Assembly: GCA_025934735.1 (NCBI GenBank)
Contig: JAICWP010000027.1
Coordinates: 1 to 53,642, forward strand
DNA length: 53,642 nt
Source: Terriglobales bacterium
GTDB lineage: Bacteria; Acidobacteriota; Terriglobia; Terriglobales; Acidobacteriaceae
Reading direction: 5' to 3'
Shown here: positions 2,504 through 9,393 of the stretch, piece after piece
Layout of the letters: each line of letters begins with the position of its first letter
Position numbering within the stretch: the stretch's first letter is position 1
Made by a program: the position numbers and the translations under genes
Notes under the pieces: generated by a model
Told to the model about the DNA's origin: nothing
Databases searched by the model: none
The model's input: the letters and a program-made list of their open reading frames with translations, nothing else

Positions 2504-3967
2504 TTACCGTAAACCAATGGCTGCTGCCGCAGCCCGCAAAGACTTCTGATGAGCCTCTTTAACCCGGATCGTGAGCCGCTTCTGCCGGGCGATCATGAAG
2601 GGGGCGTAGTGCTGTTGCGTGATCTGGATATTGCTGTGTCCCAGAAGGGCCGCCACATCTTCCGTGCTCAGGTCGTTCAGGAAGCACCACTGCGCAAAGG
2701 TGTCGCGCAGCATGTGGCTGTGAAAGTCCATCGCATTGCCGTTTTCGTCCTTCAAGGCCGCAGCCTTCGACAGCTTGCGGAACAGGTCGCCCCATTTCTT
2801 GATCAAGTTGTCCAGTTGCGCTTCTTTCGTGGGTATACCGCTCACAAAGAAGTACCGGGGATTGTCGTTCTCAAGCACAACCAGCTCCCGGCCGATTTCC
2901 GGGCTGATGGTACAGAAAACGTCTACCCCGGTCTTGGCTCGCCTGAGGAATACCCGGTACCAGCCGTCCTCATCCTCTTGCAGCTTCGTGCGCTCCAGCG
3001 TGACCGCATCCTTAATGGCCAGACCGCTCCAGCGCATCAGGAGAATCAAGGCACGAAGCTTCTTGCGCTGCTCGGGCGTGCTCTCGCCGTTGACCTTGGA
3101 GATGGCGTTCAGTACCTGCTCGAACTGCTCATCGGCGAGGGCGAGCGTTGGCTTGCGGTCGTTGTTCTTGATCTTCCGCAAGCCTTTTGCCGGGTCTTTG
3201 ATGATGAGGTCATGCTCATAGCACCACTTGAAGAACCCCTTCACCCGGCTCTGAGCCTTGATCTTGGTCGATGCCTCGCCCTTCCACTCCGAGCGCCATT
3301 GCTCCAGGTGCGTGAGAGTGATTTCGTTGATATACCGCAGCCCGTTGCAGTTCGCGAACTCAACCAGGCGCTTCTCGAACCAGACAACCAGCTTACCGAT
3401 GGACTTTTCTTTGTAGCCCTCATCACGCTTGGTTTGGAGGAATTGCTCAATCGCATCGGCAATCGTGACGCGCGTGATCTTTTCAGGCTCGGGCTTGCCC
3501 TCGGCGATGGCTTGGAAATTCGCCTGCTTCGCCCGCGCTCTGCGGTATGCCTCCTCCTCGTCATTTCCAGCCGCTTCCTTGTGCCGCTTGCCGCCCTCGG
3601 ACCAAATTAGCAGCTTGGGGCAGGAGCAGCTATTGCGGGTGCTGTCCGTCCACTTGCAGCCCTTCGTGGTCAGTGTGCCGCTCTTCAGGCGCTTGCCGTT
3701 CTCGTCTACCCCGTAGTAGTCCTTGCGATGCTCGGTGCGGACGTTGACGACCGGCACAGCACGCGCCCGCTTGCCCCGGCGGATGAGCGGCTGTGCTGCT
3801 ATGCTTCGTTCGAGTTGCTCTTTGCCCTGATCAACTGTTAGCGTTTCCAATGCTCGGTCCCCGCATTTGACGTCCGTAAAAGGACCGGCAAATACGAGGC
3901 GATTTTGACAACGGCTTGTAACTCCTTCAAGATAACCGTGGTAACTGCTAATCGGATGTCGTGCCAT
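2504..3967 (-). CDS. Site-specific tyrosine recombinase (phage-type integrase), 487 aa
   Basis: The C-terminal catalytic domain shows the full tyrosine-recombinase set in order: Arg in LLMRWSGLAIKDAV, Lys in RRAKTGV, HxxR in HSHMLRDTFAQ, His in LLGHSNIQIT and the nucleophile Tyr in QQHYAPF. Upstream lies a SAM-like core-binding domain (IADAIEQFLQTKRDEGYKEK and following). Before it is a Cys-containing N-terminal segment (NSCSCPKLLIWSEGGKRH), a form I associate with acidobacterial integrases. The frame runs back to an ATG at 4006, but 3970-3984 is a GTCCCGGAGGGAC repeat, so I chose ATG 3967; a GTG further in, before PVVNVR, is also possible. No tRNA attachment site was found nearby. It marks the left 4 kb as mobile or formerly mobile. 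Confidence 0.9.
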   Translation of the reverse strand: MARHPISSYHGYLEGVTSRCQNRLVFAGPFTDVKCGDRALETLTVDQGKEQLERSIAAQPLIRRGKRARAVPVVNVRTEHRKDYYGVDENGKRLKSGTLTTKGCKWTDSTRNSCSCPKLLIWSEGGKRHKEAAGNDEEEAYRRARAKQANFQAIAEGKPEPEKITRVTIADAIEQFLQTKRDEGYKEKSIGKLVVWFEKRLVEFANCNGLRYINEITLTHLEQWRSEWKGEASTKIKAQSRVKGFFKWCYEHDLIIKDPAKGLRKIKNNDRKPTLALADEQFEQVLNAISKVNGESTPEQRKKLRALILLMRWSGLAIKDAVTLERTKLQEDEDGWYRVFLRRAKTGVDVFCTISPEIGRELVVLENDNPRYFFVSGIPTKEAQLDNLIKKWGDLFRKLSKAAALKDENGNAMDFHSHMLRDTFAQWCFLNDLSTEDVAALLGHSNIQITQQHYAPFMIARQKRLTIRVKEAHQKSLRAAAAAIGLR

Positions 3968-4014
3968 ACGTCCCGGAGGGACGGCACAGTGCCTGAGGAT
4001 CCTCATGGAATTGA

Positions 4015-5824
<1,810 letters not shown>

Positions 5825-6331
5825 ATGCAGGACCGAACGGAAACGCTTGCCATTGGCGACCGGGCGCCCGATTTCACGCTGTTCGCGGCCAATCGCAAAG
5901 AAAGCTTCTCGCTTTCCGGGCTCTGGCAGCGCGGCCCGGTCATCCTGGAATTTTTGCGTGGCACCTGGTGACCGAACTGCGTGAAGCGCATGGCTCAGTT
6001 TGAGTCACTCAAAGATCGCATCCGCGGCGCCGGTGCCGATTTGCTCTACATCGCGGCGGAAAAGCGCGAGGGATTTTTTAAGCCGGAAAAATACCTGCTG
6101 GAGCATCCGGTCTCCTTCCCTTTTCTGCTGGATGAAGACCGAAGCGTGACCAAGAGTTTCGGCCTGTATCACCGCATCGGCATGGACGCTTTCAACATCG
6201 CGCATCCCGCCACCCTGGTGATAGATCGCGGCGGCGTGATCCGTTTTATTTATCGTGGCGACGGCCAGACCGACCGCGCACCGACGGAGCAGGTTCTCGA
6301 CGTGCTCGGCAAGCTGCAGAGCTCCGGATAA
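5825..6331 (+). CDS. Candidate selenoprotein: peroxiredoxin-like (AhpC/TSA, thioredoxin-fold) protein with UxxC, 168 aa
   Basis: From ATG 5825 one frame reads to TAA 6329-6331 except for an internal TGA at 5969-5971 (codon 49). Both sides belong to one thioredoxin-fold redoxin. Before the TGA are the family N-terminus (LAIGDRAPDFTLFAANRKES) and the strand VILEFLRGTW. After it are PNCVKRMAQFESLKDRIR, the EHPVSFPFLLDEDRSV segment and the cis-Pro region (NIAHPATLVIDRGGVIRFIY). The TGA falls exactly where relatives have the first Cys of CxxC, giving GTW-U-PNC with Cys52 as resolving partner. A bSECIS-like hairpin follows at once (separate entry). Role by family: thiol/selenol peroxide or disulfide reductase, probably cytosolic, since no signal peptide is seen. 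Alternatives are a nonsense pseudogene or a TGC-to-TGA sequencing error. If the TGA is read as stop, only a 48-residue stub or an N-truncated start at 5981/5990 remains. Confidence 0.75.
5972..6004 (+). promoter_or_regulatory. Candidate bacterial SECIS stem-loop
   Basis: Directly 3' of TGA 5969-5971, CGAACTG (5973-5979) pairs with CAGTTTG (5996-6002): seven pairs with one G-U. Then comes a 5' bulge CGTGA (5980-5984), a second stem AGC/GCT (5985-5987 with 5993-5995) and a five-base apical loop GCATG (5988-5992). The first loop base is G, 17 nt past the TGA, inside the 16-37 nt window known for bacterial SECIS elements. A competing smaller hairpin (TGCG/CGCA, loop TGAAG) is possible. Folding was done by eye. 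Confidence 0.6.
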
Positions 6332-6396
6332 GAAAGTTTGCCGTCACTCAACTTCAACTGAGTACCAGGTACTGAGTACTGAAAACGGAGGCATCC

Positions 6397-7032
6397 ATGA
6401 AAAAAAGACTGACCTTGCTGCTTGCCACTACCTTGCTCGGCCTGCCCGCGATGGCCCAATCCACGCTCTCGCCCGGCACCCCGGTTTACATGAAATTGCA
6501 AAGCACGCTCGCCACCTTCATGAACAAGACGGGTGACCAGTTCTGGGGCACGGTGACGCAACCGATCATGGAGTCTGGAAGAATCGTGATTCCTGCCGGC
6601 TCCACGGTCATCGGCCATGTCACCAGGATCAGCGAACCGCGGCGCATTGCCGGCAAGCCCACCATCGGGCTGCATCCCGATACTGTCACCCTGCCCAACG
6701 GCGCCAAGTACGCGCTCAGCGCGGTGCTGGTGGACACCAGTCTGCGTGATGGTTCCGACGTAAATGAAGAAGGCCAGTTCAAAGGCAGCGGCCATGACCG
6801 GCACGACACGCGCGAAACCGCGGTTGGCGGCGGCGCTGGCCTGCTGATGGGCGCGTTGATGGGCGGCGCCGAAGGCGGCCTCATCGGGGCAGGAGTGGGC
6901 GCCGGAGCGACCATGGCGCACTGGCTATACAAGCACCGCTCCGCCACCCTGGCCGCGGGCACGGTTCTGATTTTTGAAGTTAGCCGGCCCACGACAGTTG
7001 GACCAGCGGGCAGCTTCAGCGGCGCAGAATAA
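6397..7032 (+). CDS. Secreted/envelope protein with glycine-zipper segment, 211 aa
   Basis: A classical signal peptide (MKKRLTLLLATTLLGLPAMA, cleavage after AMA) is followed by a beta-rich domain resembling TrbI/VirB10-like or organic-solvent-tolerance-type barrels (PVYMKLQSTLATF, RIVIPAGSTVIGHVTRI, LPNGAKYALSAVLVDT). Residues about 147-180 form a glycine-zipper stretch (AVGGGAGLLMGALMGG, then GLIGAGVGAGATMAHW), as in periplasmic or outer-membrane-associated small proteins. A GGAGG motif lies 6-10 bases upstream of ATG 6397. The gene follows the candidate selenoprotein by 65 bp on the same strand and may share a transcript. Exact function unknown. Confidence 0.75.
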   Translation: MKKRLTLLLATTLLGLPAMAQSTLSPGTPVYMKLQSTLATFMNKTGDQFWGTVTQPIMESGRIVIPAGSTVIGHVTRISEPRRIAGKPTIGLHPDTVTLPNGAKYALSAVLVDTSLRDGSDVNEEGQFKGSGHDRHDTRETAVGGGAGLLMGALMGGAEGGLIGAGVGAGATMAHWLYKHRSATLAAGTVLIFEVSRPTTVGPAGSFSGAE

Positions 7033-7140: not shown

Positions 7141-9393
7141 TTATTGTGCAAACGCAAACGCTGCCAGCTCCGCCTCGCTGAGCAGGTGCAGCTCGATCCA
7201 TCCTTCCAGCGGCAGCGCATCAATGGGCAGGCGGTCGCGCCACATGCTGAAGCGCACACGCAGCTTGCTGCCCGCGCCTGAGCCACCGTTCTTGGCTGCC
7301 ACGAACTGCGGAACAACCCACTGCAGCGGCAGCTTGAATTCAAAATTCTTACGCAGCACCAACTCGGCTCCGGTTGATCCCCGCCCCGACCCGGCCACCA
7401 CTTCGCCCGTCGCCGTTTCCCGCAGGTGCCACGCGGCAATCGCCCCCTGTTGACAGGAGATGTCCAGGCACAGCGTGCGACCCGGCTGCTTCGCCTTGTC
7501 GGGCCAGACTTCCAGATTCACCAGAATTTCGCAGCGCTCTTCCGGCGGCTTGCCGGCGAAGTCCATGCGCCCGTACAGGTACTGCTCGTCAATGCCGGCA
7601 TAAACCGCATCCAGCACGAACCGCTTGCCGTGCATGGAGCCCGAGCGCCGGTCGGCCGTGTACATGGCCGCTCCCAGCCAGGCGAAGTAGCGCACCAGGT
7701 CGCCCTCAATGCGGGGATGAATATACGCGGTCTGCGGCACATAGACCGGGCGCCCCACGCCCGAATAGATGGGATGGGCCAGATGCTCCGGCGGCGCCGC
7801 TCCCAGCGCCTGGTACACGTTGGCCAGGTGCTTGCGGTAAAGCTCATCGAATTCGCGGTCGTTCACCGAATGGTGTTCCGGACCGTACCACCAGTTCCAA
7901 TCGCTGCCCTCGGCAATCAGCAGCTCCTCGTACGCCAGCTCGCGCTTGCCCGGCTCCACGTGGGGAGCGTGTTCCGCGAAGAAATCGTGCGCCGCTGAAA
8001 GGTAGTCCCAGGAGCGGTTATCCTCCGGCGCTCCAATCCAGATATCGAAATTGGCATTAATCCACGAGCCCGGCACCAGCGATTCCAGTTTCCCGAAATC
8101 CCTCTGCCGGGCAATGGCTTCCGAAGCGGTCACCGCCTCCAGTTCGGAATCCTTCTGCAGGGCGGAATAAAAACGGCGCAGGAACTCGCGTCCCGACTGC
8201 GGATAATATTCCCACGCGTTCTCGCCATCAAGAATGATGGCGACCACCGCATCCTTCCCTTGTGCAAGAACGGGTCTGGCTGAATCCTTAACGTTTTTGA
8301 TTAAGTGTTCTGCGGCCTCCTTCGCGGGCATGCTGGAGTACACAAACCCGATTAGGTCAGAAAGCGTGTGGTCGCGGAAGAACAGGTGCATCCCCGCCTG
8401 GTTCTTTTCGTAGCGATAGATGGTGTACAGCTTCTCGGCTGCGTGTTCCGGCAGTTTGCCGCTGCCGTCGCGCGCGAAGTTGAAGGCCAGCGACCGCCCC
8501 AGCACGCCTTCGTCAGTGGCCATCCATTGCACGCCTTGCTCGTGGGCAAGCGCGAGCACCGGCTCGGAAACGCTGCCCTCGGAAGGCCACACACCCCGCG
8601 GCCGGCTGCCAAACACTTTCTCGTGCAACTCCAGGCCGCGCCGCAGTTGCTCACCGGCGTCTTCCGGATGCTGAAATCTGGCTTGTGGCAACGGCCTTCC
8701 CGGGCTCGACACGGCCCCCATCGCGGTGTCGCAAACCAGCGGCAGAATGGGATGGTAGAAGGGCGACGTGGAAAGCTCCACTACCCCACTGCGCGCCGCG
8801 GCCTTGTATTCCGGCAGCACCCGCTGCAGCAGCTTGCCTTGCTCCGCGATCACGAACTCCTGGTCTTCGCGGGTGTAGTCATGGCCCTTGTGTACGAGCG
8901 CGGCGATTTCCGGCTCCTGCAGGAAAAATTCATCGAACCAGGCCAATTGCGAGAGCACCTGCAGGTCGGTGTAGTCCCGGTTCTGGAAGAATCGCTCGGC
9001 GCGCGCCGGCATCTCTCCTGCGCCGTGATAACGCTCCCACAAATCGCGATACCGCGGATAGCGCCCGATCACGTGTACCGGGTTGGCCTGGAATAAGTAT
9101 TGGAGCGCCTGCCGCCGCTCCTCCTGATTCAGTTCCGCTGCCGGCTTCGACGCGAGCTCCAGGAACGGATCCCGTGCCGTCCCCGCGGCGTACTCCTGAA
9201 TCTGCGCTACCAGCGACGGCACCAGGTTAAACGTCTGGTGCACCCCGGGAAACTCCTCCGCCACCCGTACCATGCCGTAGTAGTCCTTCAGCGCATGCAG
9301 CCGTACCCAGGGCAGACGATATTCGCCCGTCACCAGGTCTTTGTAATACGGCTGATGCATGTGCCAGAGCAGGACTACGCGGATAACAGGCAT
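7141..9393 (-). CDS. Glycoside hydrolase family 57 protein (alpha-glucan-active), 750 aa
   Basis: GH57 enzymes hydrolyse or transfer alpha-glucans (amylase, 4-alpha-glucanotransferase, amylopullulanase). Conserved regions are visible in order: HMHQPYY at 11-17, GVWPSEGSVSE at 267-277 with nucleophile Glu272, IILDGENAWEYYP at 386-398 with acid/base Asp389, and DWNWWYG at 498-504. A C-terminal extension of about 200 residues is beta-rich and probably carbohydrate-binding or a structural domain. No signal peptide is visible (it starts MPVIRVVLLWHMHQPYY, where the hydrophobic stretch is the first barrel strand), so it is likely cytosolic and involved in glycogen or maltodextrin metabolism. Substrate cannot be fixed from sequence alone. 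It is convergent with the secreted protein gene and followed upstream by the co-oriented ADOP gene 125 bp away. Confidence 0.9.
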   Translation of the reverse strand: MPVIRVVLLWHMHQPYYKDLVTGEYRLPWVRLHALKDYYGMVRVAEEFPGVHQTFNLVPSLVAQIQEYAAGTARDPFLELASKPAAELNQEERRQALQYLFQANPVHVIGRYPRYRDLWERYHGAGEMPARAERFFQNRDYTDLQVLSQLAWFDEFFLQEPEIAALVHKGHDYTREDQEFVIAEQGKLLQRVLPEYKAAARSGVVELSTSPFYHPILPLVCDTAMGAVSSPGRPLPQARFQHPEDAGEQLRRGLELHEKVFGSRPRGVWPSEGSVSEPVLALAHEQGVQWMATDEGVLGRSLAFNFARDGSGKLPEHAAEKLYTIYRYEKNQAGMHLFFRDHTLSDLIGFVYSSMPAKEAAEHLIKNVKDSARPVLAQGKDAVVAIILDGENAWEYYPQSGREFLRRFYSALQKDSELEAVTASEAIARQRDFGKLESLVPGSWINANFDIWIGAPEDNRSWDYLSAAHDFFAEHAPHVEPGKRELAYEELLIAEGSDWNWWYGPEHHSVNDREFDELYRKHLANVYQALGAAPPEHLAHPIYSGVGRPVYVPQTAYIHPRIEGDLVRYFAWLGAAMYTADRRSGSMHGKRFVLDAVYAGIDEQYLYGRMDFAGKPPEERCEILVNLEVWPDKAKQPGRTLCLDISCQQGAIAAWHLRETATGEVVAGSGRGSTGAELVLRKNFEFKLPLQWVVPQFVAAKNGGSGAGSKLRVRFSMWRDRLPIDALPLEGWIELHLLSEAELAAFAFAQ

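Follow-up and report, generated by a model that had tools for sequence, protein, structure and literature searches.

Redoxin-fold selenoproteins that carry selenocysteine (Sec) in a UxxC motif have already been catalogued. In the sections available to us, a 2026 review (PMC13188914) lists peroxiredoxin-like UxxC/UxxU proteins (PF00578) and Redoxin UxxC proteins (PF08534) among the selenoproteins predicted with high confidence, and like families appear in the accessible parts of PMC9312934 and of the GOS paper (PMC2398784). Three known selenoproteins are counted in the acidobacterium Occallatibacter riparius in the portion of PMC12013277 that we could consult. A search for published work on the orthogroup described here, which left subscription papers largely outside its reach, found no title.

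The locus lies in a 53,642-nucleotide stretch of a Terriglobales genome (contig JAICWP010000027.1; hereafter, the window). We estimate a probability of roughly 0.93 that the TGA at 5969-5971 encodes Sec, and we explain the gene around it as a functional one, its product being a small acidobacterial selenoprotein with a redoxin domain and a UxxC motif; the argument is a comparative one, made from genome sequences. Because UxxC peroxiredoxin-like and redoxin selenoproteins have been catalogued, as far as the accessible text of PMC13188914 and PMC2398784 goes, the window gene would be a member of an already known kind of selenoprotein. Its main features are the following.

5825-6331, plus strand: candidate UxxC redoxin selenoprotein gene, 168 amino acids from ATG to TAA with TGA as Sec; assigned from the frame, Pfam matches, orthologs and purifying selection before and after the TGA.
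5969-5971, plus strand: in-frame TGA, the proposed codon of Sec49, which opens the UxxC motif (U-P-N-C); TGA in orthologs, Cys in more distant homologs.
5978-5980, plus strand: TGC codon of Cys52, proposed resolving partner of Sec49 and sole Cys of the protein; TGC in 13 of 13 sequences.
6206-6208, plus strand: codon of Pro128, a residue invariant in 36 aligned sequences, at the catalytic-Arg position of peroxiredoxins (alignment to 2cx3; contrast with the TxxU peroxiredoxin of the same genome).

The original prediction held that this frame is broken only by the TGA and that the TGA stands at the first Cys of a CxxC motif. Both statements were confirmed in the letters and the translation: the sole internal stop is TGA 5969-5971, the surrounding protein reads GTW-U-PNC, and the active-site UxxC motif is U49-P-N-C52. 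We searched the 168-residue read-through product against profile collections with Cys substituted at the U position. The best Pfam match was Redoxin (PF08534; E 3.6e-22, residues 11-158, 79.2 bits against a cut-off of 26.6), followed by AhpC-TSA (PF00578; E 1.2e-20, 74.1 bits against 26). Both matches run across the TGA position, in agreement with the claim that a single AhpC/TSA-type redoxin lies on its two sides. No signal peptide was evident when the 168-residue protein was inspected by eye, and the selenoprotein is probably cytosolic. A program-made list of open reading frames holds a 116-residue GTG frame at 5981-6331, the reduced product that had been anticipated; a standard gene caller would probably lose the first third of the protein and the active-site residue, here and in acidobacterial relatives.

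The source genome (4.94 Mb in 50 contigs, 99.83% complete) encodes the machinery that Sec insertion would call upon. One tRNA-Sec locus scores above the Rfam gathering score, at 70.6 bits, and ARAGORN agrees with this assignment (anticodon tca); the same program assigns the seven weaker matches given as loci to tRNAs for Gly, Cys, Ser and Leu. The selA (554 bits), selB (352) and selD (366) genes all score above curated cut-offs in the same genome, and hence all four components for which the original prediction advised a search, selC (tRNA-Sec) included, were detected.

We then compared the residue at the codon across relatives. A first collection comprised the source genome and 60 relatives (61 in total), 37 of them, its own included, from the same family. 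Clear orthologs are present in 15 of these 37 genomes, with 55-68% identity over the main piece apart from the window gene itself, and the aligned codon is TGA in every one of the 15. Thirteen of the 15 are otherwise intact, the other two (G001 and G008) being drafts with a frameshift. One genome of the same class (G060) has a relative of 36% identity that likewise shows TGA and UPNC. The selA gene was found above cut-off in 47 of the 61 genomes. Within the family the ortholog is present in 15 of 27 selA-positive and in none of ten selA-negative genomes (Fisher p 0.0019, with no correction for kinship); it is absent from the remaining 12 selA-positive genomes, and three of the ten selA-negative genomes are less than 85% complete.

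A second, named genome collection gave 51 loci, of which the 23 closest (L047-L069; 51-72% identity) carry acidobacterial titles; TGA stands at the codon in 22 of these 23. The two collections overlap, as judged by the sequence after the codon (L018 equals L048, L020 equals L056, L024 equals L062, L026 equals L064 and L029 equals L066). Deduplication left 60 distinct sequences with RGTW before TGA, TGC or TGT, 46 with Sec and 14 with Cys; since this set was chosen by those three codons, it says nothing on whether other residues occur, a question for which we used a locus-by-locus reading. When 396 genomes of the phylum were drawn, 36 gave a match at 1e-20; 30 loci were read, that of the source genome among them, and in 25 the aligned codon is TGA. 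The alignment of homologs that the original prediction had called for shows only TGA or Cys at the codon in 36 aligned relatives. Other residues were seen in distant peroxiredoxin-type matches, Thr in L085 and Ser in L124, and Leu in the broken match L083. Plasmid records (99 in all) contained only distant redoxins, the best place of each falling below 60% identity, and a PHROGs search gave a single weak match to a family of unknown function.

Several readings would make the TGA something other than a Sec codon. A nonsense mutation in a pseudogene or decaying gene would fit a conserved domain interrupted by a stop and the frameshifts in two of 15 orthologs, but 46 distinct sequences, from this redoxin group and those near it and from many genera, share a TGA at this position; dN/dS downstream of it is 0.07-0.23 (dS above 1; computable in nine of ten pairs), the codons there are constrained, and within the family the gene occurs only in selA-positive genomes. 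Frame-disrupted close relatives, the sign of decay named in the original prediction, were confined, among the 15 same-family orthologs, to the two drafts. Negligible as this reading is, a sequencing or assembly error for TGC, TGT or TGG is no more credible, the identical codon being found in many separate genome records. Scarcely better is the idea that a working protein is made without Sec, either because the TGA is read, independently of Sec machinery, as Trp or some other residue, or because translation starts at the internal GTG at 5981 and gives a truncated product. The GTG frame does exist, but residues 1-48 are under purifying selection (dN/dS 0.12-0.28 upstream of the TGA, computable in seven of ten pairs) and contribute strands and a helix to the modelled fold, and the truncated form would go without residue 49. 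No Trp codon was found at the Sec position among the matches whose codon was read. We rejected all four explanations (pseudogene, sequencing error, Sec-free read-through and internal start) because the TGA is shared, and because of the selection on the protein and the distribution of the gene. The claim that the gene is translated with Sec is thus supported by the sel genes and tRNA-Sec, by the conserved TGA and by selection after it.

The one codon among the 23 close loci that is not TGA is in L067, from a metagenome-assembled genome of Edaphobacter aggregans (positions 3001-3483, 51% identity), which has TGC. L067 is nested within the acidobacterial Sec clade (support 100/99), beside a Sec sequence (83/83), and keeps the neighbours enolase and a Gly-zipper-like gene. 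Its hairpin pairing is reduced to three of six pairs and the conserved CGCATGGCTCAG is lost. No selA match was found in its genome, and ARAGORN identifies the single tRNA-Sec match above cut-off (50.2 bits) as a tRNA-Ser. L067 looks like a gene in which Cys has naturally replaced Sec and the hairpin has been lost, a further case of the conversions in bacteria described in PMC1794560, to judge from the parts of that paper at hand. More distant Cys homologs come from Chloroflexota, Brevibacillus, Armatimonadota and Myxococcota. Among seven Cys-form genomes searched for selA, the gene is present in three Chloroflexi, so possession of the Sec trait is not enough to fix Sec at the codon; none was found above cut-off in the L067 genome, two Brevibacillus genomes and one Armatimonadetes genome. 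The orthogroup offers a clean natural experiment, in that one lineage combines Cys, hairpin loss and no detected selA or tRNA-Sec and the other close relatives have Sec.

Two mutually exclusive, overlapping hairpins downstream of the TGA could serve as the bacterial SECIS element (bSECIS).

5991-6007, plus strand: best-supported putative bSECIS hairpin, UGGCUCA-GUU-UGAGUCA, with a stem of 7 bp, or of 6 bp if the loop is taken as AGUUU; the loop G is 5998 and the loop follows the TGA by 25-26 nt; from RNAalifold, pairing and covariation on 36 sequences.
5973-6002, plus strand: hairpin of the original prediction, with stem 5973-5979/5996-6002, bulge 5980-5984, stem 5985-5987/5993-5995 and loop GCATG at 5988-5992; overlaps and excludes the hairpin at 5991-6007.

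Codon usage shows constraint on the RNA just downstream of the TGA. In 13 sequences, pairwise codon identity is 0.76 at seven conserved residues within positions 50-58 and 0.41 at the 67 remaining conserved residues (permutation p 1e-4). Three codons are fixed in 13 of 13 sequences, Cys52 as TGC, Arg55 as CGC and Gln58 as CAG, and Glu60, just beyond the stretch, is GAG in 12 of 12. Codon identity is low within the stretch at Pro50 (0.50), Lys54 (0.56) and Ala57 (0.59), and high codon identity occurs elsewhere too (Phe17 0.85, Gly113 0.72).

The original prediction took the GCATG hairpin to be the bSECIS. Its 7-bp stem, 5-nt bulge, 3-bp stem and GCATG loop are all present in the letters; the assignment as bSECIS is better supported, in our sequence comparisons, for the hairpin at 5991-6007. 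Across 36 sequences, 95.8% of cells are paired in the 5991-6007 hairpin, a level reached by 2 of 500 shuffles, and its covariation score is likewise reached by 2 of 500; at columns 27:35 both sides have changed in two sequences, UA having given CG and GC. RNAalifold on the 36 sequences chooses this hairpin, and at the 15-sequence stage had given a two-hairpin fold that included its stem. Such an excess of pairing over shuffles is support and not proof, as related sequences can exceed shuffles without structure.

That the functional element is instead the hairpin at 5973-6002 seems improbable to us, though it has points in its favour. All ten of its pairs form in the window, and its energy is better (-9.2 kcal/mol versus -6.5 for 5991-6007); the minimum-free-energy fold of the window contains its lower stem and not the 5991-6007 hairpin, and this fold has a slight advantage over shuffles (z -1.65; 17 of 200 were as good). 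Four of its pairs have changed on both sides among the 36 sequences (17/500), and the covariation count favoured it among the first 15 sequences (4/500 versus 102/500), an order that was reversed with 36. Against it, its pairing (88.9% of cells) is matched by 87 of 500 shuffles, where the 5991-6007 hairpin is matched by two; its covariation score is reached by 37 of 500, column pair 6:33 is unpaired in 16 of 36 sequences, and RNAalifold prefers its rival. The bSECIS model in the Fig. 2 legend of PMC13188914, the part of that review used here, has a loop of 3-9 nt with a G in the first two positions, an upper stem of 4-16 bp, 16-37 nt from UGA to loop and a minimum free energy of -7.5 kcal/mol or below. 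With an upper stem of 3 bp, below the 4-bp minimum, and a loop that opens with G then C, the 5973-6002 hairpin falls outside this legend's model. The 5991-6007 hairpin agrees with it in loop size, stem length, loop G (G5998) and spacing (25-26 nt), and alone reaches -6.3 kcal/mol, short of the -7.5 limit; the region from the UGA reaches -14.3 in another fold.

A hairpin score of at least 5, for a loop of 3-6 nt with G in the first two places lying 13-39 nt after the codon, was obtained by 41 of 46 Sec genes, by none of 14 Cys homologs and by 20.8% of 2392 other in-frame sites near Sec codons; the sequences compared are related and not independent. The five Sec genes below this score are L022, L024, L029, L049 and L050; a C-A mismatch is present in four of these. 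In the ten Sec redoxins of the set that are more distant, such a hairpin lies 16-25 nt beyond the TGA, and AGTT, GTT and GGT are among its loops.

The protein itself was examined by structure prediction. An AlphaFold2 model built with 36 sequences reached a pLDDT of 91.8. The closest solved structure is Bcp4 (3hjp; Z 24.2, rmsd 1.7 over 157 residues), and the best 50 structure matches listed by VIA-align are all peroxiredoxins by title; ResA/TlpA is absent from these 50, which does not exclude matches to ResA/TlpA structures. In an alignment to 2cx3, Arg45, Sec49, Cys52 and Pro128 fall at positions that we take to be the peroxiredoxin-motif Pro, Ser/Thr, peroxidatic Cys and catalytic Arg. The peroxiredoxin signature PxxxT(S)xxC and its catalytic Arg are thus missing, with R45, U49 and P128 at the places of Pro, Thr/Ser and Arg. 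The description of the protein as peroxiredoxin-like accordingly stands for the fold and fails at the active site, where the motif Thr/Ser and the catalytic Arg are replaced.

Because Sec49 and Pro128 occupy the Thr/Ser and catalytic-Arg positions, disulfide exchange appears a likelier activity than that of a classical peroxidase, and we lean towards a UxxC thiol-disulfide oxidoreductase, a preference that we infer chiefly from the contrast with a TxxU peroxiredoxin of the same genome that retains the Arg (ARRATFVID). The selenoprotein could instead be a peroxidase, a peroxiredoxin variant with its reactive residue moved three places, in which Sec49 reduces hydroperoxides directly and Cys52 resolves. 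Sec selenolates react fast with peroxides, and the peroxiredoxin fold, the 50 listed structure matches and the Redoxin and AhpC-TSA domains would all suit such an enzyme; the replaced active-site residues, and the presence in the genome of a TxxU peroxiredoxin with its Arg kept, make this the less likely of the two activities in our view. For the favoured UxxC oxidoreductase we propose that SelB with Sec-tRNA-Sec, tethered by the 5991-6007 hairpin, would direct decoding of UGA 5969-5971 as Sec49. Sec49, at the start of helix 50-60 of the peroxiredoxin-like fold, would attack an oxidised substrate (a disulfide or hydroperoxide); Cys52, the only Cys, would resolve the mixed product to an internal selenenylsulfide, and a thioredoxin-type reductant may then reopen it.

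The same genome holds other selenoprotein candidates. Two UxxC redoxins, C38 (L129 nt 952; FYEGFWUPYC) and C44 (L131 minus strand nt 1216; FRSADWUPFC), each have a hairpin of 6 bp that lies 20-21 nt beyond the TGA, so that the genome has at least two UxxC redoxin candidates besides the window gene. The TxxU candidate is C17 (L130 894-1325 minus strand; FAFTGGUTQEM); no good hairpin follows its TGA (score 3.0), which makes its Sec less sure. The selD gene (C5; L014 nt 1531 / L132 nt 965) is also a selenoprotein gene candidate, with a TGA in KAAGUASK and a 7-bp hairpin, loop GGC, 20 nt downstream. With three UxxC and one TxxU candidates in one genome, the contribution of Sec to a redoxin could be tested within one organism.

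The neighbourhood of the gene is also shared among relatives. Neighbours were counted by tblastn on the 23 close loci, several of whose contigs end too early to include all of them.

4132-5442, minus strand: enolase, divergent; beside 18 of 23 close loci, upstream and on the opposite strand.
6397-7032, plus strand: Gly-zipper-like protein, from a weak Pfam match under cut-off; downstream in 17 of 23 close loci.
7141-9393, minus strand: GH57 glycosyl hydrolase; found in 14 of 23 close loci.
5786-5815, plus strand: promoter-like TTGTTC-N18-TAGAGT, second box ending 9 nt before the ATG; from comparison of upstream regions.

In the window, a phage-integrase family gene of 500 amino acids (2504-4006, minus strand) adjoins the enolase gene.

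Boxes resembling TTGTTC-N17/18-TACAGT score at least 9 of 12 in 24 of 32 distinct upstream regions, compared with 10.8% of single-base shuffles, and in 22 of those 24 the second box ends 7-10 nt ahead of the start codon. The consensus was drawn from the same regions that were scored, and no start codon was placed for L065. Since these regions are homologous and supplied the consensus, the shared boxes show conservation and not function. A standard sigma-70 scan of 5441-6450 found no promoter, so the element rests on comparison. If the boxes are a promoter, the mRNA would have little or no leader. We put forward as a tentative model a Sec-fixed redoxin orthogroup of Acidobacteriota, in which the gene within the family has Sec or is absent and never occurs without selA, and the close Cys form L067 comes without a detected Sec trait. 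It would be expressed from a conserved promoter, its second box 7-10 nt before the start, and its mRNA would be leaderless or nearly so, the distance between start codon and bSECIS being about 166 nt.

How does the window protein compare with described redox proteins? SelL has the motif UxxU; the SelL-related family NF040769 shares a related domain with the window protein (E 7.1e-12), but the match reaches 45.3 bits against a cut-off of 120, and the window protein is UxxC. With the ResA/TlpA thiol-disulfide oxidoreductases it has in common the N-terminal C/U of CxxC and an NCBIfam ResA match at 6.7e-12, and the Pro that ResA/TlpA proteins have before the strand is a further likeness. It differs from ResA in reaching 45.7 of 170 bits, far under the cut-off, in having no signal peptide by eye, and in its listed structure matches, which are peroxiredoxins. 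A canonical Sec peroxiredoxin (TxxU, for example C17) shares the fold and a proposed active-site selenium, whereas the window gene has its Sec three places earlier and Pro at the catalytic Arg. Closer likenesses, as far as the accessible text of the two papers goes, are the peroxiredoxin-like thiol:disulfide oxidoreductases (PF00578, UxxC/UxxU; PMC13188914 Table 1), or 'Prx-like 1' of PMC2398784, which, compared by description only, have the same AhpC-TSA domain, Sec in UxxC and a predicted redox role. With the Redoxin family selenoproteins (PF08534, UxxC; PMC13188914), or 'Prx-like 3' of PMC2398784, the window gene shares both the UxxC motif and PF08534 as best match. The GOS Prx-like 3 family, by the part of PMC2398784 consulted, matches PF08534 weakly and has 2,608 Cys homologs to 68 with Sec, whereas the close relatives of the window gene nearly all have Sec.
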